A DNA stretch of 39,853 nucleotides from Clostridiales bacterium (GTDB lineage Bacteria > Bacillota > Clostridia > Christensenellales > Aristaeellaceae): contig SVGQ01000014.1 of assembly GCA_015056245.1 (NCBI GenBank), positions 1 to 39,853 of the forward strand. Direction: 5' to 3'. Shown here in pieces: positions 1,701-23,967 of this stretch. The first letter of the stretch is position 1; every line of letters begins with the position of its first letter. Position numbers and translations under genes: made by a program. A model generated the notes under the pieces. That model did no database searches and was not told the origin of the DNA. It saw only the letters and a list, made by a program, of their open reading frames with translations.

Positions 1701-4700
1701 TTATGCGTCGATGGTGGAGATGCACATGGTGGTCTCTTCCAGCACGTCCAGCAGCACGCGGACGGTATCCAGCGCGGTGAACACGCTGACGTTGTTCTCC
1801 GTGGCGCAGCAGCGGATCTTGTAGCCGTCGCTCATCTGATCAGCGGAGCCGATGTCGCGGGTGTTGAGCACGTAGGCCAGGTGACCCTGACGGATGGCAT
1901 CCAGAATCTCTTCGCTGCCGTCCCGGAGCTTCTTGCGCTCGTGGGTGCGGATGCCGTTCTGCTTGAGGAAGGTGGCGGTGCCGGAGGTGGCCTCAATGTT
2001 GAAGCCCAGGTTGTAGAAGCGGCGGATCAGGGGCAGGGCTTCTTCCTTGTCCTTGTCGGCGATGGTGCAGAACACGGTGCCGTAGTTCTGCAGGTGCATG
2101 CCGGAAGCCTCCAGCGCCTTGTACAGGGCACGGTTCAGCTTGTCATCGTAGCCGATGGCTTCGCCGGTGGACTTCATTTCGGGGGAGAGGTAAGCATCCA
2201 GACCGCGGATCTTGCTGAAGGAGAACACGGGCACCTTCACGTACCAGCGCTTTTTCTCTTCGGGGTACAGGTCGAAGTAGCCCTGCTCCTTCAGGCTCTT
2301 GCCAAGGATAACCTCAGTGGCGATATCGGCAAGGCTGTAGCCGGTGGCCTTGGAGAGGAACGGCACGGTACGGGAGGAACGGGGGTTGACCTCGATGATG
2401 TACACATTCTCGTTCTTATCCACGATGAACTGGATGTTGTACAGGCCCACGATGCCGATGCCCAGACCCAGCTGCTTGGCATACTGGAGAATGGTGCCCT
2501 TGACTTTGTTGGAGATGGAGAAGGCGGGGTAGACGCTGATGGAGTCGCCGGAGTGGATACCGGTGCGCTCCACCAGCTCCATGATGCCGGGCACGAACAC
2601 GTCGCGGCCGTCGCAGATGGCGTCCACCTCGACCTCTTTGCCCACGATGTAGTGGTCCACCAGAACGGGCTTGTCCTCGTCGATTTCAACGGCGGTTTTC
2701 AGGTAGTGGCGCAGCTGGCTTTCGTTGCCCACGATCTGCATGGCGCGACCGCCCAGCACGAAGCTGGGGCGCACCAGCACCGGGTAGCCCACCTTCGCGG
2801 CGGCCTTCACGCCGTCCTCAATGTTGGTGACAGCATGGCCTTCGGGCTGGGGAATGCCCAGTTCCTCGAGGATCTTCTCGAAGGAATCGCGGTTCTCGGC
2901 CCGCTCGATGGCATCGCAGTCGGTGCCGATGATCTTCACGCCGCGCTTCATCAGGGGCTCCGCCAGATTGATGGCAGTCTGACCGCCCAGGGAGGCGATG
3001 ACGCCTTCGGGCTTTTCAAACTCGATGATGTTCATCACATCTTCGGGGGTCAGGGGCTCGAAGTAGAGCTTGTCGGCGGTGGTGTAGTCGGTGGAGACAG
3101 TCTCCGGGTTGTTGTTGATGATGATGGCTTCATAGCCGGACTTTTTGATGGTGGAGACGGCATGGACGGTGGAGTAGTCGAATTCCACGCCCTGACCGAT
3201 GCGGATGGGGCCTGCACCCAGCACGATGATCTTCTTCTTGTCGCCCAGACGGCTGTTGTTTTCGCCGGTGTAGGAGGAGTAGAAGTAGGGGATGTAGGCA
3301 CCCGTATGGCAGGTGTCCACCATGCGGTAGGCGGGCATCATATTTTCCTGCTTGCGCAGGTTCCACACGTCGATCTCGCTCACATTCCACAGCTTGGCGA
3401 TGTAGGGATCGCAGAAGCCCATCTTCTTGGCGTCGGCAAGGATGCGGGCATCCAGCCGGTTGGCCTTGAGCAGGATCTCCATGTCCACGATGTTCTGGAA
3501 CGCCTCCAGGAACAGCATGGTGATCTTGGTCACTTCATGGATCTTGTCAAGGCTCACGCCAAGGCGGATCAGCTGCATGATGGCAAACAGGTTGTCGCTC
3601 TTGAAAGTCTTCAGGTAGTCCAGAAGCTCTTCTTCGGTCATGTTGTCAAACTTGGACATGTACAGGTGGTTCACGCCGATTTCCAGGCAACGGACGGATT
3701 TGAGCAGGCTCTCTTCCAGATTGGAGCCGATGCCCATTACCTCGCCGGTGGCCTTCATCTGGGTGCCCAGCTGGTTGGAGGCGCTGGTGAACTTGTCAAA
3801 GGGGAAGCGGGGCAGCTTGGCAACCACATAGTCAAGGCTGGGCTCGAAAGCGGCGTTGGTGTTGGCGATTTCGATCTCTTCCAGCGTCATGCCCACGGCG
3901 ATCTTGGCGGTGACCCGGGCGATGGGGTAGCCGCTGGCCTTGGAAGCCAGGGCGGAAGAGCGGCTCACGCGGGGGTTGACCTCGATGAGGTAGTACTCGC
4001 TGCTTTCGGGGTTGAGGGCAAACTGTACGTTGCAGCCGCCTTCGATCTTCAATTCGCGGATGATCTTGAGGGCGCTGTCGCCCAGCATCTTCAGGTCGTG
4101 GTCGTTGAGGCTCAGGATGGGAGCCACCACGGCGGAGTCGCCGGTGTGCACGCCCACGGGGTCGATGTTCTCCATGCCGCAGATGGTGATGGCATGGTCG
4201 GTGGAGTCGCGCATGACCTCGAACTCGATCTCCTTGTAGCCTTTCACGCTCTTCTCAATGAGCACCTGATGCACAGGGGACAGCTTGAAGGCGTTGTTGC
4301 CGATCTCGATGAGCTCTTCCTCGTTGTCGGCAAAGCCGCCGCCGGTACCGCCCAGCGTGAAGGCAGGACGCAGCACCACGGGATAGCCGATGCGCTCGGC
4401 AGCGGCTTTGGCTTCGTCCAGATTGTAGGTGATTTCAGAGGGGATGGTAGGCTCGCCGATGGACTGGCACAGCTCCTTGAACAGCTCGCGGTCCTCGGCG
4501 CGCTCGATGCTGGCGCTGCTGGTACCCAGCAGTTCCACGTGGCACTCACGAAGCACGCCCTTCTTTTCCAGCTGCATGGCAAGGTTCAGGCCGGTCTGAC
4601 CGCCGATGCCGGGCACGATGGCATCGGGACGCTCGTAGCGCAGGATGCGGGCCACAAATTCCAGCGTCAGGGGCTCCATGTACACCTTGTCGGCGATGGA

Positions 4701-4874
4701 GGTATCGGTCATGATGGTGGCAGGGTTGGAGTTTGCCAGCACCACTTCGTAGCCCTCTTCCTTCAGGGCCAGACAGGCCTGCGTACCGGCATAGTCGAAC
4801 TCTGCCGCCTGACCGATGACGATGGGGCCGGAACCGATGATAAGGATCTTCTTGATGTCTGTGCGCTTTGGCAT
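1701..4874 (-). CDS. carB: Carbamoyl-phosphate synthase large subunit
   Basis: A 1057-residue enzyme that makes carbamoyl phosphate from bicarbonate, two ATP and ammonia supplied by the small subunit CarA. The two homologous ATP-grasp halves are clear: the first starts KRTDIKKILIIGSGPIVIGQ, the second KKIIVLGAGPIRIGQGVEFD near residue 550. Each half carries its GGQT and RPSFVLGG/RPAFTLGG-type motifs, and a methylglyoxal-synthase-like regulatory domain ends the protein. The ATG at 4874 has a CAGGAGG site. Normal length, no lesion. CarA is not encoded next to it, although carA-carB adjacency is usual; 57 nt separate this gene from pyrC and hold no remnant of carA. Confidence 0.97.
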   Translation of the reverse strand: MPKRTDIKKILIIGSGPIVIGQAAEFDYAGTQACLALKEEGYEVVLANSNPATIMTDTSIADKVYMEPLTLEFVARILRYERPDAIVPGIGGQTGLNLAMQLEKKGVLRECHVELLGTSSASIERAEDRELFKELCQSIGEPTIPSEITYNLDEAKAAAERIGYPVVLRPAFTLGGTGGGFADNEEELIEIGNNAFKLSPVHQVLIEKSVKGYKEIEFEVMRDSTDHAITICGMENIDPVGVHTGDSAVVAPILSLNDHDLKMLGDSALKIIRELKIEGGCNVQFALNPESSEYYLIEVNPRVSRSSALASKASGYPIARVTAKIAVGMTLEEIEIANTNAAFEPSLDYVVAKLPRFPFDKFTSASNQLGTQMKATGEVMGIGSNLEESLLKSVRCLEIGVNHLYMSKFDNMTEEELLDYLKTFKSDNLFAIMQLIRLGVSLDKIHEVTKITMLFLEAFQNIVDMEILLKANRLDARILADAKKMGFCDPYIAKLWNVSEIDVWNLRKQENMMPAYRMVDTCHTGAYIPYFYSSYTGENNSRLGDKKKIIVLGAGPIRIGQGVEFDYSTVHAVSTIKKSGYEAIIINNNPETVSTDYTTADKLYFEPLTPEDVMNIIEFEKPEGVIASLGGQTAINLAEPLMKRGVKIIGTDCDAIERAENRDSFEKILEELGIPQPEGHAVTNIEDGVKAAAKVGYPVLVRPSFVLGGRAMQIVGNESQLRHYLKTAVEIDEDKPVLVDHYIVGKEVEVDAICDGRDVFVPGIMELVERTGIHSGDSISVYPAFSISNKVKGTILQYAKQLGLGIGIVGLYNIQFIVDKNENVYIIEVNPRSSRTVPFLSKATGYSLADIATEVILGKSLKEQGYFDLYPEEKKRWYVKVPVFSFSKIRGLDAYLSPEMKSTGEAIGYDDKLNRALYKALEASGMHLQNYGTVFCTIADKDKEEALPLIRRFYNLGFNIEATSGTATFLKQNGIRTHERKKLRDGSEEILDAIRQGHLAYVLNTRDIGSADQMSDGYKIRCCATENNVSVFTALDTVRVLLDVLEETTMCISTIDA

Positions 4875-6697: not shown

Positions 6698-6781
6698 GCT
6701 GAGGAGACAAGTACCGGTCATTTGATAAAGCATCTCAGCACTTTGCCTCTCATAAGCCACCAGTCTCCATATCACTCCCAT

Positions 6782-6811
6782 TTGACATCCCCCCACCCGC
6801 CCATATATAAT
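6782..6811 (+). promoter_or_regulatory. Promoter of the GH3 glucosidase gene
   Basis: Both hexamers are consensus: TTGACA (6782-6787), an 18-nt spacer and TATAAT (6806-6811). Transcription would start near 6818, about 60 nt before the ATG. Confidence 0.8.
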
Positions 6812-6878
6812 GAACCCAACCAATCAACCGCCCACAGGCGGCAATGCGTCGAACAATAAAACAAGGAGACATATACCG

Positions 6879-9146
6879 ATGGATATCAAACAGCTGATTT
6901 CTCAAATGACATTGGAAGAAAAGGCTTCCCTGCTGTCGGGACTGGACTTTTGGCACACCAAGGGCGTGGAGCGTCTGGGCATTCCCAGCGTGATGGTCAG
7001 CGACGGCCCTCACGGCCTGCGCAAGCAGGATCTGGAAGCTGACCATCTGGGCATCAACGAGAGCATCAAGGCGGTGTGCTATCCCACCGCCAGCGCCACC
7101 GCCGCCAGCTTTGACCGGGACGTACTGCGTCAGGTGGGCGAGGGCGTGGGCGATGGTTGCCAGCATGAACAGGTGTCCGTGATTCTGGGCCCGGCGGTGA
7201 ACATCAAGCGCAGCCCGCTGTGTGGTCGCAATTTCGAGTATTTCAGCGAGGATCCCTACCTGACGGCGGAACTGTCCACCAGCTTTATCAAGGCGGTGCA
7301 GGGCAAGAACATCGGCGTGAGCGTGAAGCACTTTGCCGCCAACTCCCAGGAACACCGCCGCATGGCTTCCGACAGCGTGGTGGATGAGCGCACCCTGCGG
7401 GAGATCTACTACCCCGCTTTTGAAAGCGCTGTGAAGAATGGCAAGGCGTGGACGGTGATGTGCTCCTACAACCGGCTCAATGGCGAGTATGCCTCCCAGC
7501 ACCGCCAGCTGCTGACGGATCTGCTTCGCGGCGAGTGGGGCTTTGACGGCTATGTGGTCAGTGACTGGGGCGCGGTGAGCGACCGGGTCAAGGGTGTGCA
7601 TGCGGGGCTGGATCTGGAAATGCCTGCTTCCGGCGGCGAAAACGACCGGCTGGTGGTGGAGGCTGTGCGCAATGGTCAGCTGGACGAAGCGGATGTGGAT
7701 CTGGCGGTGGAGCGCATCCTGACCATCAACCAGCGGTATCTGGACAACGCCAAGCCCGACACTGTGTGGGATAAGGAAGCCCAGCATGCGCAGGCCCGCC
7801 AGCTGGCTGCTGAGTGCATGGTGCTGCTCAAAAACGAGGACAATGTGCTGCCCCTTGCCAAGGGCGAGGAGATCGCCGTGATTGGTAAGTTTGCGGTGAA
7901 GCCCCGCTTCCAGGGCGGCGGCAGCAGCCATATCAACTCCTTCAAGACGGAGAGCCTGATGGATGCCCTTGCTGGCATGCCCGGCATCACCTATGCGCAG
8001 GGCTATGATATCATCACCGAGGAGCCGGACGAAGCCCTTATTGCTGAGGCCTGCGCCGCAGCAGCCAAGGCCCAAAAGGCGGTCATCGTGGCAGGTCTGC
8101 CGGACAGCTTCGAAAGCGAAGGCTATGACCGCAGCCATATGCGCATGCCCAACTGTCAGGTGGAGCTGATCAAGCGCGTGGCAGAAGTCAACCCCAACAC
8201 CATCGTGGTGCTGTATAACGGCTCCCCTGTGGAAATGCCGTGGCTCAGCAGCGCCAAGGCGGTTGTGGAAGCCTATCTGGGCGGTCAGGCCGTGGGCGGG
8301 GCCACCAAGCTGGTGCTGTTCGGCGATGTGAACCCCTGCGGCAGGCTGCCGGAAACCTTCCCCATCAAGCTGGAGGACAACCCCTCCTACCTGACCTACG
8401 GCGGCGAGGGCAATACGGCGGTGTACAGCGAGGGCGTGTTTGTGGGTTACCGCTATTATGACCGCAAGAAGATGGATGTGCTCTTCCCCTTCGGTTATGG
8501 CCTGAGCTATACCACCTTCCAGTACAGCAACCTGACCCTCAGCGCGGACAGCATCAAGGATACGGACACCCTGACCATCTCCGTGGATGTGACCAACACC
8601 GGCAAGGTGGCTGGCAAGGAAGTGGTGCAGCTGTATGTGAGCGACAAGGAAAGCACGGTGTTCCGTCCTGTGCGCGAGCTGAAGGGCTTTGAGAAGATCG
8701 CCCTCCTGCCCGGCGAAACCAAGACCGTCACCTTCAGGCTGGACAAGCGGGCCTTTGCCTACTGGAACACCCAGATCAGTGACTGGCATGTGGAAACCGG
8801 CGCGTTTGCTATCGAGATCTGCTTGTCCAGCCGGGATGTGGCCCTGAGCGCGGAGGTCACCGTGGAGGGCACCGTTCAGCTGCCCACCCATTACACGCTG
8901 GATACCCTGTTCATGGATATTGCCAAGGATCCCCGTGCCATGGCGGTGATCAAGCCCTTCCTGGATGCCCAGCAGCCGGATTTCGGCTGCGAAGCGGAGA
9001 GTGAGACCGCCCGGGAAGCCATCACCCCGGAAATGGCGATGGCAATGATGCAGAACAGCCCCCTGCGCTCCAGCCTGAGCTTCGGCAATGGAGTGGTGAA
9101 GCGGGAGGATCTGCTGAAATTGCTGGATATGATCAACAACGCTTAA
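6879..9146 (+). CDS. Glycoside hydrolase family 3 beta-glucosidase
   Basis: A 755-residue enzyme expected to release glucose (or a related sugar) from the non-reducing end of beta-glycosides. The GH3 N-terminal domain begins MDIKQLISQMTLEEKASLLSG, contains KHFAANSQEHRR, and has the nucleophile aspartate at D229 in VVSDWGAV. The GH3 C-terminal domain and a fibronectin-III-like domain (ELKGFEKIALLPGE) follow, then a helical tail of about 80 residues. No signal peptide is present, so it should act on imported sugars in the cytoplasm. The ATG at 6879 has AAGGAGA 9 nt upstream; the upstream in-frame ATG at 6810 falls in the promoter. Substrate cannot be told from sequence alone. Confidence 0.93.
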   Translation: MDIKQLISQMTLEEKASLLSGLDFWHTKGVERLGIPSVMVSDGPHGLRKQDLEADHLGINESIKAVCYPTASATAASFDRDVLRQVGEGVGDGCQHEQVSVILGPAVNIKRSPLCGRNFEYFSEDPYLTAELSTSFIKAVQGKNIGVSVKHFAANSQEHRRMASDSVVDERTLREIYYPAFESAVKNGKAWTVMCSYNRLNGEYASQHRQLLTDLLRGEWGFDGYVVSDWGAVSDRVKGVHAGLDLEMPASGGENDRLVVEAVRNGQLDEADVDLAVERILTINQRYLDNAKPDTVWDKEAQHAQARQLAAECMVLLKNEDNVLPLAKGEEIAVIGKFAVKPRFQGGGSSHINSFKTESLMDALAGMPGITYAQGYDIITEEPDEALIAEACAAAAKAQKAVIVAGLPDSFESEGYDRSHMRMPNCQVELIKRVAEVNPNTIVVLYNGSPVEMPWLSSAKAVVEAYLGGQAVGGATKLVLFGDVNPCGRLPETFPIKLEDNPSYLTYGGEGNTAVYSEGVFVGYRYYDRKKMDVLFPFGYGLSYTTFQYSNLTLSADSIKDTDTLTISVDVTNTGKVAGKEVVQLYVSDKESTVFRPVRELKGFEKIALLPGETKTVTFRLDKRAFAYWNTQISDWHVETGAFAIEICLSSRDVALSAEVTVEGTVQLPTHYTLDTLFMDIAKDPRAMAVIKPFLDAQQPDFGCEAESETAREAITPEMAMAMMQNSPLRSSLSFGNGVVKREDLLKLLDMINNA

Positions 9147-9168
9147 ATCCTTTGTATATAAGGAACAT

Positions 9169-9206
9169 AGCCCCTGCCGGTGCCCCGTGCGCTGGCAGGG
9201 GCTTTT
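9169..9206 (+). terminator. Terminator of the GH3 gene
   Basis: A 10-bp stem AGCCCCTGCC/GGCAGGGGCT followed by TTTT, 22 nt after the stop codon. Confidence 0.85.
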
Positions 9207-9329
9207 GGATATCCACCAGTCAGGAAACCTCAACAATCGTTGAGAAATGAACAAAACCGTGAGTGTATGTTGCCGGAAAACCTTTTATCATCAGGGAATT
9301 TGCATCTTTGGGTCGCGCACAATGCCCAC

Positions 9330-12301: not shown

Positions 12302-12413
12302 CCGTCTGTTTGCTATGCGCATAAGCGACTGCCGCTGTGCCAGGGGATGAAATGAAAGCGCTGCCAAGGCATTCCGTTTTCTGTGCCCCCGAAAAAGCAA
12401 TGCAGACAGACGG
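12302..12413 (+). promoter_or_regulatory. Structured 5' leader of the oxidoreductase gene
   Basis: CCGTCTGT (12302-12309) pairs with ACAGACGG (12406-12413), closing a domain of about 110 nt. The helix continues after a bulge with TTGC/GCAA, and GGGG/CCCC can pair inside. The domain begins about 10 nt after the predicted start of transcription and ends 34 nt before the ATG. I could not match it to TPP, FMN, THF, cyclic-di-GMP or other riboswitch classes I know. Confidence 0.4.
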
Positions 12414-12435
12414 CTTTCAATGATAAATCACTTAG

Positions 12436-13155
<720 letters not shown>

Positions 13156-13170
13156 GCCACTCCCGCCATC

Positions 13171-15948
<2,778 letters not shown>

Positions 15949-19763: not shown

Positions 19764-19792
19764 TTGGCAGGAAGCTACATTTCGGTTATAAT
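19764..19792 (+). promoter_or_regulatory. Promoter of the GluRS-LeuRS fusion gene
   Basis: TTGGCA (19764-19769), 17 nt, TATAAT (19787-19792). The predicted start, near 19799, falls in the first arm of the hairpin that follows. Confidence 0.7.
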
Positions 19793-19794
19793 AT

Positions 19795-19833
19795 AAGCTT
19801 GAAGGGTTATACGATCCTTCAAGCTTATTTTTT
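19795..19833 (+). terminator. Hairpin with T tract at the 5' end of the fusion-gene transcript
   Basis: An 11-bp perfect stem AAGCTTGAAGG/CCTTCAAGCTT with a 10-nt loop, then A and six T. It may end read-through from the XRE gene, or act on the new transcript as an attenuator, since seven of its base pairs lie after the predicted start. Confidence 0.65.
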
Positions 19834-19854
19834 CATTCATTTAGGAGGCGCCTT

Positions 19855-22800
19855 ATGACTGTTCGCACCCGGTTCGCACCCAGCCCCACGGGCTACCTGC
19901 ATCTGGGCGGTTTGCGTTCCGCCCTGTATACCTACCTGTTCGCCAAGAAGAACGGCGGCAAGTTCATCCTGCGTATCGAAGATACGGATCAGGAACGCGA
20001 GGTCCAGGGCGCTGTTGAAAAGATCTATTCCAGCATGCGTATGGCGGGTCTCCACTACGACGAAGGCCCCGATGTAGGCGGCGAGTACGGCCCCTATATC
20101 CAGTCCCAGCGCAAGGAAACCTACCTGCCCTATGCCATGCAGCTGGTGGAAAGCGGCGCGGCTTACCCCTGCTTCTGCACCAAGGAAGAGCTGCAGGAGC
20201 GCCGTGATGCTGCCACTGCAAACGGCGGTCAGTGGAAGTACGACAAGCACTGCCTGTCCATTCCCAAGGAGGAGGCCCTGCGCCGTATGCAGAGCGGCGA
20301 GCCCTTCGTCATCCGTCAGAACATCCCCACCACTGGCACCGCCAGCTTTGAGGATGCCCTCTACGGTCACGTGGAAGCTCCCTGCGATACGCTGGATGAC
20401 AACGTGCTCATCAAGGCCGATGGTCTGCCCACCTACAACTTCGCCAACGTGATCGACGACCACCTGATGGGCATCACCCACGTGATGCGCGGCACGGAGT
20501 ACCTCTCTTCCACCCCCAAGTACAATCTGCTTTACGAGGCTCTGGGCTGGGAACCCCCGGTCTATATCCACATGAGCCCCGTGATGAAGGATTCCACCCG
20601 CAAGCTGAGCAAGCGTTATGGCGATCCCGGCTTTGAAGACCTGCTGGAGCAGGGCTATGTGCGGGATGCTATCATCAACTTCATCGCTCTGCTGGGCTGG
20701 TGCCCCGATGTGAAGAAGTACGGCGAGAAGGAATTCTTCACCATGGACGAGCTCATCGAGGCTTTCGACCTCAGCGGCCTGAGCAAGTCCCCCGCCATTT
20801 TCAATGTGGAAAAGCTCAACTGGTTCAACCATGAGTACATCATGAAGATGGACTTTGAGGACTATCTCCAGATGGCTACCCCGTGGTTTGACAAGGTTCT
20901 GGCTGGCAAGAACATGGACTACCGCATGCTGGCCAGCCTGATGCACACCCGCACCGAGATCTTCTCTCAGGTGCCCGATCAGGTCAAGTTCCTGGCGGAG
21001 CTGCCGGAGTACAATGTGGGCATTTTCACCCACAAGAAGATGAAGACCGATTCGCCCATCTCCCTGAAAGCCCTGCAGCTGGCCCGCCCTGCACTGGCTG
21101 CGCTGGAGGATTTCAGCGAGGAAAATGTGAAGGCCGCTTTGATGCAGCTGGCTGCCGACAATGGCATGAAGACCGGTCAGATCATGTGGCCTGTGCGCAT
21201 CGCCATCTCCGGTCTGGTATCCACCCCCGGCGGCGCCACCGAGATCGCCTATCTGCTGGGCAAGGAAGAATCCCTGCGCCGCATTGATTTCGGTATCCGC
21301 AAGCTGGAACGCTGCATCGCTACCGCCGCCATGGAAGGCAAGTGGCAGAAGTACTGGGAGGAAAACAACACTTTCGCTACCGATGTGTGGGATTTCTCCA
21401 AGCCCAAGTACTATGTGCTGGATATGTTCCCCTACCCCTCCGGCGTGGGTCTGCACGCAGGCCATCCCGAGGGCTACACCGCCACGGATATCATGTCCCG
21501 CATGAAGCGCATGCAGGGCTACAACGTGCTGCATCCCATGGGTTACGACTCCTTCGGTCTGCCCGCTGAGCAGTACGCCGTGGATACCGGCAACCATCCC
21601 AACGGTTTCACCCAGAAGAACATCGAAACCTTCTCCGGTCAGCTCAAGGAACTGGGCTTCGACTACGACTGGTCCAAGGTGATCGCTACCACCGATCCAG
21701 AGTTCTACAAGTGGACCCAGTGGATCTTCAAGAAGCTGTGGGAAGCCGGCTATGCCAAGCGCATCGAGATGCCCGTCAACTGGTGCGAAGCCCTGGGCAC
21801 CGTGCTTGCCAATGACGAAGTCATCGACGGCAAGTCCGAGCGCGGCGGCTACCCCGTTGAAAAGCGCATGATGATGCAGTGGGTTATCGACCAGCCCGCC
21901 TTTGCTGAAAAGCTGCTGGAAGGTCTGGACGAGATCGAATGGCCTGAATCCACCAAGGAGATCCAGCGCAACTGGATCGGCAAGTCCACCGGTGTGGAAG
22001 TGGACTTCAAGCTGGTGGGCGGCGGCGAGTTCTCCATCTACACCACCTGCATTGAAACCATCTACGGCATCACCTTCATGGTGCTGGCCCCCGACGGCAA
22101 GATCGTTCAGTCCCTGATGGACCGCATCCAGAACAAGGACGAGGTGGAAGCCTACATCAAGGCTGCTGCCAGCAAGAGCGAGATCGACCGTACCGATGCC
22201 ACCAAGACCAAGACCGGCTGCCCCCTGAAGGGCATCTATGCCATCAACCCGGTCAATGGCAAGGAAGTGCCCGTATTCATCGGCGACTTCGTGCTGGGCA
22301 ACTACGGCACCGGCGCTGTGATGGCGGTTCCCAGCCACGACCAGCGCGACTTTGAGTATGCCATCGCCCACAACATCCCCATGCTGCAGGTCATCGAGGG
22401 CCGCGATGTGTCCGAGTGCGCCTTTGAAAAGCAGGATTATCTGGGCAAGGGCTGCAAGCTGATCAACTCCGAGGAGTTCACCGGCCTGACCGTGGAGGAA
22501 GCCAAGGAAGCCATCACCGTCAAGCTGGAAGGCATGGGCGTTGCCCGCCGCAAGGTGAACTACCACTTCCGTGAGTGGATCTTCGCCCGCCAGCGCTACT
22601 GGGGCGAGCCCGTTCCCTGCGTCTACACCGAAAATGGCGAGACCGTCTTCCTGCCCGATGAGGAACTGCCCGTCATCCTGCCCGAACTGCAGGATTACAA
22701 GGGTCGCGGCGGCAAGGCGCCTCTGGAGAACGCCGAGAAGTGGAAGCACTACAACAAGAACGGTATCAAGGGTCTGCGCGAAACCTCCACCATGCCCGGT

Positions 22801-23727
22801 TCCGCCGGTTCCTCCTGGTACTACATGCGCTACATCGATCCCAAGAACAACGACCAGCTCTGCGATCCCGAACTGCTCAAGCACTGGATGCCCGTTGACC
22901 TGTACGTGGGCGGCCCCGAGCACGCGGTGGGTCACCTGATCTACTCCCGTATCTGGAACCGCTTCCTGTACGATCAGGGCATCAGCCCCGTCAAGGAGCC
23001 CTTCAAGAAGCTGGTGCATCAGGGCATGATCCTGGGCGAGAACGGCATCAAGATGGGCAAGCGCTTCCCCAAGTATGTGGTCAACCCCAGCGATATCGTC
23101 CGCGAGTACGGCGCCGATACCCTGCGCCTCTATGAAATGTTCATGGGCCCGCTGGAAGTATCCAAGCCCTGGTCCTCCGCTGCTGTTGCCGGTGCCAGAA
23201 AGTTCATCGACCGCGTGTGGAACTTCTTCACTGTGCCTGAGAACATCACTGAATCTGACGATGGCAAGCTGACCAAGATCTATCACCAGAGCGTGAAGAA
23301 GATCACTTCCGACTTTGAGGTGCTGGGCTTCAATACCGCCATCGCTCAGATGATGACCTTTGTCAACGAGTGCTACAAGAACGGCACCTGCCCCCGTGAG
23401 TATGCTGAGGGCTTCATCAAGATGATGAGCTGTATCACTCCCCATGTGGGCGAGGAAATCTGGCAGCGTCTGGGTCACGATAACACCATCGCCTACGAAG
23501 CATGGCCCACCTATTCCGAGGAAAAGTGCAAGGACACTGAGGTGGAAATCGCTGTGCAGATCAACGGCAAGGTTCGCGCCAAGCTGATGGTCTCCCCCGA
23601 GATGACCCGCGAGGAGGCGGAGGCTCAGCTGCCCCAGCTGGACGAAGTGAAGGCTTTGGTGGGCGACAAGACCATCGCCAAGCTGATCTTCGTGCCTGGC
23701 CGCCTGTGCAATATCATTGTGAAGTAA
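19855..23727 (+). CDS. Glutamyl-tRNA synthetase / leucyl-tRNA synthetase fusion
   Basis: One uninterrupted frame of 1290 codons. Residues 1 to about 482 form a full GluRS (GltX): PSPTGYLHLGG at 9-19 (HIGH site), KLSKR at 250-254 (KMSKS site), and a complete anticodon domain ending SLRRIDFGIRKLE. From about residue 493 the chain is LeuRS (LeuS): GKWQKYWEENNTF, HAGH at 534-537, the CP1 editing domain with TTCIET (730-735) and AVPSHDQRDFEYA, then KMGKR at 1066-1070 and a full anticodon and C-terminal part. Only the first 10 or so residues of a usual LeuRS are replaced by the joint. The internal ATG at 21331 has no ribosome site, so LeuRS is most likely made as part of the fusion. AGGAGG precedes the 19855 ATG. 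Confidence 0.93.
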   Translation: MTVRTRFAPSPTGYLHLGGLRSALYTYLFAKKNGGKFILRIEDTDQEREVQGAVEKIYSSMRMAGLHYDEGPDVGGEYGPYIQSQRKETYLPYAMQLVESGAAYPCFCTKEELQERRDAATANGGQWKYDKHCLSIPKEEALRRMQSGEPFVIRQNIPTTGTASFEDALYGHVEAPCDTLDDNVLIKADGLPTYNFANVIDDHLMGITHVMRGTEYLSSTPKYNLLYEALGWEPPVYIHMSPVMKDSTRKLSKRYGDPGFEDLLEQGYVRDAIINFIALLGWCPDVKKYGEKEFFTMDELIEAFDLSGLSKSPAIFNVEKLNWFNHEYIMKMDFEDYLQMATPWFDKVLAGKNMDYRMLASLMHTRTEIFSQVPDQVKFLAELPEYNVGIFTHKKMKTDSPISLKALQLARPALAALEDFSEENVKAALMQLAADNGMKTGQIMWPVRIAISGLVSTPGGATEIAYLLGKEESLRRIDFGIRKLERCIATAAMEGKWQKYWEENNTFATDVWDFSKPKYYVLDMFPYPSGVGLHAGHPEGYTATDIMSRMKRMQGYNVLHPMGYDSFGLPAEQYAVDTGNHPNGFTQKNIETFSGQLKELGFDYDWSKVIATTDPEFYKWTQWIFKKLWEAGYAKRIEMPVNWCEALGTVLANDEVIDGKSERGGYPVEKRMMMQWVIDQPAFAEKLLEGLDEIEWPESTKEIQRNWIGKSTGVEVDFKLVGGGEFSIYTTCIETIYGITFMVLAPDGKIVQSLMDRIQNKDEVEAYIKAAASKSEIDRTDATKTKTGCPLKGIYAINPVNGKEVPVFIGDFVLGNYGTGAVMAVPSHDQRDFEYAIAHNIPMLQVIEGRDVSECAFEKQDYLGKGCKLINSEEFTGLTVEEAKEAITVKLEGMGVARRKVNYHFREWIFARQRYWGEPVPCVYTENGETVFLPDEELPVILPELQDYKGRGGKAPLENAEKWKHYNKNGIKGLRETSTMPGSAGSSWYYMRYIDPKNNDQLCDPELLKHWMPVDLYVGGPEHAVGHLIYSRIWNRFLYDQGISPVKEPFKKLVHQGMILGENGIKMGKRFPKYVVNPSDIVREYGADTLRLYEMFMGPLEVSKPWSSAAVAGARKFIDRVWNFFTVPENITESDDGKLTKIYHQSVKKITSDFEVLGFNTAIAQMMTFVNECYKNGTCPREYAEGFIKMMSCITPHVGEEIWQRLGHDNTIAYEAWPTYSEEKCKDTEVEIAVQINGKVRAKLMVSPEMTREEAEAQLPQLDEVKALVGDKTIAKLIFVPGRLCNIIVK

Positions 23728-23937: not shown

Positions 23938-23967
23938 CATTGCCCACGCCCCTTTGCGTGGGCAATG
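23938..23967 (+). promoter_or_regulatory. Hairpin next to the ABC transporter ribosome site
   Basis: A perfect 12-bp stem CATTGCCCACGC/GCGTGGGCAATG with a 6-nt loop ends 7 nt before AAGGAGG of the next gene. It could end upstream transcripts only weakly, having TGTCTTT after it, or protect or regulate the ABC mRNA. Confidence 0.5.

Follow-up and report, generated by a model that had tools for sequence, protein, structure and literature searches.

The 39,853-nucleotide contig SVGQ01000014.1 of a Clostridiales bacterium, hereafter the window, was analysed. Its forward strand carries a single stop-free frame of 1290 residues in which a glutamyl-tRNA synthetase (GluRS, encoded by gltX) makes up the N-terminal part and a leucyl-tRNA synthetase (LeuRS, encoded by leuS) the C-terminal part. 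Bacterial GluRS covers approximately residues 1-485, and bacterial LeuRS begins at about residues 488-493, lacking some 7 N-terminal residues. The gene is composed as follows.

19855..23727, + strand: fused gltX-leuS gene, 1290 residues (open frame, Pfam and NCBIfam matches, same fusion in a second genome of the genus, G009)

19855..21309, + strand: GluRS half, residues 1-485, with HLGG and KLSKR (TIGR00464 over residues 2-478, alignment with 4gri over residues 2-478)

21307..21339, + strand: joint, residues 485-495, ERCIATAAMEG, consisting of the GluRS end, a few residues clearly in neither enzyme and the LeuRS start (comparison with G009 and with relatives in which the two genes are split); the peptide spanning the fusion joint is RKLERCIATAAMEGK

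21340..23724, + strand: LeuRS half, residues 496-1290, with HAGH (534-537), KMGKR (1066-1070) and the editing domain at 705-891 (TIGR00396 over residues 491-1290, PF13603 over residues 705-891, alignment A1)

An initial annotation, made from the sequence alone, had read this frame as GluRS (residues 1-482) followed by LeuRS (residues 493-1290), and profile searches bear this out. Both halves exceed the curated cut-offs of their NCBIfam equivalogs: TIGR00464 (gltX_bact) matches residues 2-478 with 481.7 bits (cut-off 289.95; model positions 1-464 of 470), and TIGR00396 (leuS_bact) matches residues 491-1290 with 953.3 bits (cut-off 548.4; model positions 4-843 of 843). Pfam domains follow each other in the order expected of the two enzymes, namely the E/Q catalytic domain, Anticodon_2, the class I ILMV domain, the LeuRS editing domain and Anticodon_1. 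The solved GluRS structure 4gri aligns with the GluRS half over residues 2-478. On the LeuRS side, the alignment with Thermus LeuRS (1h3n) starts at residue 8 of the latter, from which we conclude that about 7 residues are missing. The loss of about 10 N-terminal LeuRS residues proposed earlier is thus right within a few residues, as is also seen from the split relatives, whose leuS products begin M..Y.P..IEKKW or similar.

The GluRS half contains HLGG at residues 16-19 and KLSKR at residues 250-254 of the translation, which we take to be the HIGH-like and KMSKS-like class I signatures of this enzyme. HAGH is likewise present in the LeuRS half. The earlier statement that all signature sites were in place needs qualification for two LeuRS motifs, the KMSKS-type second signature and the editing motif. 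The former reads KMGKR (23050-23064) in place of KMSKS, with both lysine positions kept, and the latter reads TTCIETIYG (22042-22068) where Thermus LeuRS has TTRPDTLFG. Alignment A1 contains 31 LeuRS rows, namely the window and 30 loci picked from 80 (L038-L117); KMGKR is found in at least 90% of these rows and TTCIETIYG in 30 of them. Both variants are usual for this clade of LeuRS.

The GluRS half is 78-98% identical to the GluRS of 16 relatives in the genus, two of these sequences being truncated. A second alignment, A2, was set aside since it misplaced the two short GluRS rows (27 and 26% identical to its first row). Seven relatives have a LeuRS of this type in full length, one of them (G009) in fused form, and the LeuRS half shares 89-95% identity with theirs. 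Two types of LeuRS, approximately 46-48% identical to each other (L016 and L030-L035 versus L010-L015), occur within this one genus: among 15 genomes, KMGKR is found in 8, the window's own included, and KMSKS in 7. The existence of the two types suggests that leuS may have been replaced in place within the genus.

A second genome of the genus, G009 (95% complete, 1% contamination), was compared with the window's own genome, G000 (189 contigs, 81% complete, 0.6% contamination). G009 carries the same joint within one open frame of 1290 residues, 94% identical to that of the window and with neither stop nor indel. Counted along the entire frame, the two genomes differ synonymously at 215 codons and by residue at 77. 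For GluRS the rates of nonsynonymous (dN) and synonymous (dS) change amount to 0.029 and 0.268, for LeuRS to 0.045 and 0.382, which places dN/dS at 0.11-0.12 for the fused genes. Around the joint, 19 codons were compared: 11 match exactly, 4 show silent differences and 4 encode another residue. The odd joint residues RKLERCIAT are common to both alleles. The frame across the joint has thus been kept in two species through many silent changes, as translation of the complete chain would lead one to expect. A search of G000 with the whole chain revealed no second gltX or leuS but only five further short matches of at most 31% identity; none was found in G009 either, where five other matches reached at most 33%. 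The same joint in a second genome, together with the lack of any other copy found in either, upholds the earlier proposal of a genuine bacterial Glu-Leu fusion.

Seventeen genomes of the genus, G000 included, were searched. Two are fused (G000 and G009), 14 are split (G001-G008, G010-G013, G015 and G016), and in G014 the contig ends inside gltX. Among the split relatives, 13 of the 14 carry gltX and leuS, or portions of them, on a single contig; in G010 they are on different contigs, and there leuS is provided with a separate start and with DNA upstream of it. The distance between the two genes varies. It is less than about 100 bases in G002 (36), G003 (58), G004, G011 and G016, and about 200-300 bases in G013 (194), G005 (302) and G006, the figures for G002, G003, G013 and G005 being computed and the others read off. 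In G008, G007, G001, G012 and G015, about 1.7 kb separates the gltX and leuS matches, and by eye this interval opens in all five with a similar hydrophobic coding start. In G008 it is a 556-residue open reading frame (L122:1764-3434), which extends over the stop of gltX when its TTG is taken as the start; to the eye its product looks like a membrane protein, and it has no NCBIfam match. It had no match in G009, G005, G006, G004 or G011 (G005 and G006 being 80-87% complete), and in G000, within the same range of completeness, only a 25% identical relative located elsewhere was detected.

Since gltX and leuS are neighbours in almost every relative that keeps them split, the fusion is explained by an in-frame deletion between the two. 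In the ancestor the two genes would have lain close together in the same direction. A deletion would then have removed the gltX stop, any intervening DNA, the ribosome site of leuS and about 7 of its codons, so that the two coding regions became joined in frame through a few residues.

No case outside the genus was among the matches listed in wider samples. Family, order and phylum samples, which overlap in part, were restricted to genomes with a completeness of 80 or 85% and above; a GluRS truncated at a contig end would escape detection in them. In the family, a 67-residue query across the joint matched 261 of 300 genomes, and among the matches listed, down to an E-value of about 8e-9, only those of G000 and G009 run from the first residue of the query across the joint. 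When the C-terminal part of GluRS was searched together with frame length, 148 of 150 family genomes matched, and only in G000 and G009 did the frame exceed 700 codons. The order sample (109 of 121 genomes matched) gave a GluRS frame above 700 codons in G000 only, and the phylum sample (136 of 139) likewise, among the matches listed. Two long LeuRS frames of family members, in G278 (1208 codons) and G232 (1036 codons), were discarded as candidates: they contain LeuRS only, with no GluRS match in 6-6.5 kb, and their extra length is for that reason attributed to read-through of upstream DNA. In a collection of named genomes, from which the window's own and very near records were possibly excluded, GluRS lies near LeuRS in only 2 (L038 and L039) of the best 80 of 569 relatives; many others of these 80 are gut and rumen metagenome-assembled genomes of Oscillospiraceae, Lachnospiraceae and other Clostridia.

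The history of the fused gene changes across the joint: trees built from either side of it disagree, so recombination has acted nearby. The rpoB protein tree, built from 15 of the 17 genomes (G007 gave no match and a piece from G015 was left out), groups G000 with G008 (support 99/96) and, less firmly, G009 with G005 (94/89). The DNA trees were computed on rows from which bases inserted relative to the window had been dropped; the G004 row at the joint, which is not a true sequence on that account, was not relied on. Downstream of the fused gene (5 genomes), G009 groups with G005 (100/100) and a grouping of G000 with G009 is rejected with p 6e-7, a value that, like those below, is somewhat optimistic because the clades tested were picked after the first protein trees. 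In the first part of leuS (8 genomes), G009 again falls with G005 (99/97), and G000 with G009 is rejected (p 0.0019). The picture differs in the 3' part of gltX (9 genomes), where G009 is placed with G000 and G008 (99/98), G009 with G005 is rejected (p 0.00016) and G005 groups with G006 (95/95). Neither G009 with G005 in the 5' part of gltX (p 0.09) nor G000 with G009 in the second part of leuS (p 0.065) was rejected. The protein trees show a like contrast: that of GluRS joins G000 and G009 (97/91) and that of LeuRS joins G000 and G008 (98/99). As both fused alleles share the odd residues RKLERCIAT, the simplest reading is one origin of the fusion, then recombination between lineages. Either G009 received gltX and the joint from a relative of G000 and G008, or G005 was converted towards G006; the grouping of G005 with G006 in the 3' part of gltX fits the latter as well.

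We consider it very probable that a real gltX-leuS fusion has arisen by deletion between neighbouring genes and that it yields one chain charging both tRNA-Glu and tRNA-Leu. The sequences themselves show the frame, its conservation under purifying selection in a second species and no other copy found; that ribosomes read through the joint, that the chain is stable and that both halves are active is inferred. Since the chain contains each catalytic domain and the LeuRS editing domain in full, it is expected to charge both tRNAs. The initial annotation would have been refuted if all close relatives had two genes, which is not so, given that G009 is fused. Several points weigh against our reading. 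Of the 17 genus genomes, 14 do keep two genes. Only two genomes are fused, both of them drafts of more than 100 contigs, and that of the window is 81% complete. As to steric fit, a structure model of residues 1-1200 is poor (mean predicted local distance difference test, pLDDT, 57.7; predicted template modelling score, pTM, 0.45). The model runs one helix through the joint at residues 470-504, with pLDDT of about 79, 64 and 51 per ten residues from 471, which is only a hint and no evidence for rigid coupling of the halves. That missing intergenic bases, through an error of assembly or base calling, join two separate genes in the window is exceedingly improbable: the 189 contigs of its draft assembly leave room for such an error, but the same joint stands in one open frame in G009 amid 215 synonymous codon differences, on which ground we reject an artefact, and no error would produce the odd residues RKLERCIAT twice. 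A further alternative, which we regard as improbable, is that the one frame gives two products, the chain being cut or the LeuRS half being also started internally, so that the two usual enzymes result. LeuRS homology resumes directly after the joint, a LeuRS shortened by about 7 residues might still fold, and in-frame ATG and GTG codons occur at 21331 and further in, the first of them being:

21331..21333, + strand: internal in-frame ATG, an unlikely start (no Shine-Dalgarno pairing; ATC in G009)

The absence of a ribosome site before this ATG, remarked on in the initial annotation, is confirmed, as the best pairing with the anti-Shine-Dalgarno sequence is 0.0 kcal/mol before 21331 versus -10.2 kcal/mol before 19855. 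The codon is not conserved either, being ATC in G009, and initiation at 21331 is disfavoured on both counts. Among 12 in-frame start codons between 21331 and 21679, those up to 21445 pair with 0.0 to -0.2 kcal/mol; those beyond pair with 0.0 to -3.3 kcal/mol, but their use would remove the HAGH signature. To judge from these features, two products by separate initiation from one frame are unlikely. Compatible with a real fusion, and in our view rather probable, is that the fused gene is expressed but constitutes a nearly neutral accident without functional coupling. Its rarity (2 of 17 genomes in the genus and no further case among the family, order and phylum matches listed) speaks for such an accident, as does the lack of any linker domain matched by Pfam, and no pathway is known to us that links Glu and Leu in a way requiring coupling. 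Against it, purifying selection has preserved the fusion over a dS of about 0.3, and recombination may have carried the fused allele from one lineage to another. It is doubtful that the two-synthetase enzyme spread between species by homologous recombination because a link between GluRS and LeuRS is useful.

Expression of the fused gene may be directed by the following elements.

19764..19792, + strand: candidate sigma-70-like promoter, TTGGCA-17-TATAAT (pattern scan, 11 of 12 matches)

19793..19828, + strand: stem-loop followed by a T-run in the presumed 5' leader, 16-pair stem (terminator-like site scan)

19843..19848, + strand: ribosome-binding site AGGAGG of the fused gene (sequence; anti-Shine-Dalgarno pairing -10.2 kcal/mol)

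23938..23967, + strand: terminator-like hairpin 3' of the fused gene (site scan, weak)

The count of promoter-like sites (1 found, 1.9 expected in shuffles) is in itself no evidence, and terminator-like sites, including the two hairpins above, number 3 against 4.4 expected in shuffles. By eye, the same TATAAT precedes gltX in G008, G009, G005 and G006, and in G009, G005 and G006 the corresponding position holds a hairpin with altered stem letters. The hairpin at 19793..19828 is possibly an attenuator-like element or a stem that stabilises the 5' end of the mRNA; no Rfam family, T-box or other known RNA element, reaches its gathering score in the window. One promoter-like site and one good ribosome site should give a single chain of about 145 kDa, as estimated from its length, and tRNA-Glu and tRNA-Leu would be charged at a fixed 1:1 enzyme ratio.

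Elsewhere in the window, a GlnRS-like gene truncated by the contig end (39081-39851) is one of the five minor matches to the fused chain. Its best NCBIfam match is a GlnRS/YqeY fusion model; its matches to the nearest models, NF011291 and TIGR00440 (GlnRS), stay below the cut-offs, as would be expected of a truncated gene. On the reverse strand, carbamoyl-phosphate synthase large-chain domains extend along the frame at 1701-4874, and two long frames without Pfam match (6750-9254 and 12313-15684) are overlapped by forward frames at 6810-9146 and 13171-15948.

In the bifunctional synthetase EPRS (GluProRS), GluRS is N-terminal as in the fused chain, and a class I enzyme, GluRS, is joined to a class II enzyme, prolyl-tRNA synthetase (ProRS). 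EPRS of animals and their unicellular kin resembles the fused gene in holding two specificities in one chain through gene fusion, as described in PMC4394549 and PMC4072531. The partner of GluRS is ProRS there and LeuRS here. The EPRS linker is made of WHEP domains and the enzyme is eukaryotic, whereas the present gene is bacterial, its joint measures about 10 residues and no WHEP domain is among the Pfam matches of the chain. By analogy, the fused chain would work like EPRS without being a member of that group, for its partner, class pairing and linker differ. Ordinary bacterial gltX and leuS products are also recognisable here, each half being over its curated cut-off; what differs is the single frame and a LeuRS deprived of its own start and about 7 residues. 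The double-length tyrosyl-tRNA synthetase (TyrRS) of parasites and the fused (alpha-beta)2 glycyl-tRNA synthetase (GlyRS), mentioned in PMC11580382, also unite two synthetase units per chain, but as copies or subunits of one specificity, unlike the two specificities joined here. In archaea, according to PMC4394549, LeuRS is also a partner or scaffold of other synthetases, in a complex with lysyl-tRNA synthetase (LysRS) and ProRS; that complex consists of associated separate proteins and lacks GluRS, in contrast to the one chain described here.

Synthetase gene fusions in general are presented as a common mechanism in all domains of life in the abstract of PMC13215547. The fusions named in the available sections of PMC4394549, PMC6723311, PMC7373986, PMC9437257, PMC11580382, PMC4072531 and PMC3103580 are EPRS, double TyrRS, fused GlyRS subunits and single added domains, and the only one among them that joins two specificities is the EPRS of animals and close kin. 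No report of a Glu-Leu or other bacterial two-specificity fusion was found among the titles and abstract openings listed, most subscription papers and all preprints being outside the full-text search. The claim of the initial annotation that this would be a new kind of synthetase architecture is too strong, since two synthetases per chain are known from animal EPRS. What is new is the Glu-Leu pair, the domain of life, the class I nature of both halves and the absence of a linker domain.

Should the link between GluRS and LeuRS prove useful, it could provide fixed dosage, mutual stabilisation or docking, and the fused enzyme would be a prokaryotic counterpart of the animal multi-synthetase assembly. 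A young fusion of two class I enzymes beside close species in which the genes are split offers a natural experiment, in which charging, dosage and fitness could be compared between the fused and split states. The finding is also relevant to the question of how readily enzymes that are essential and abundant can become joined.

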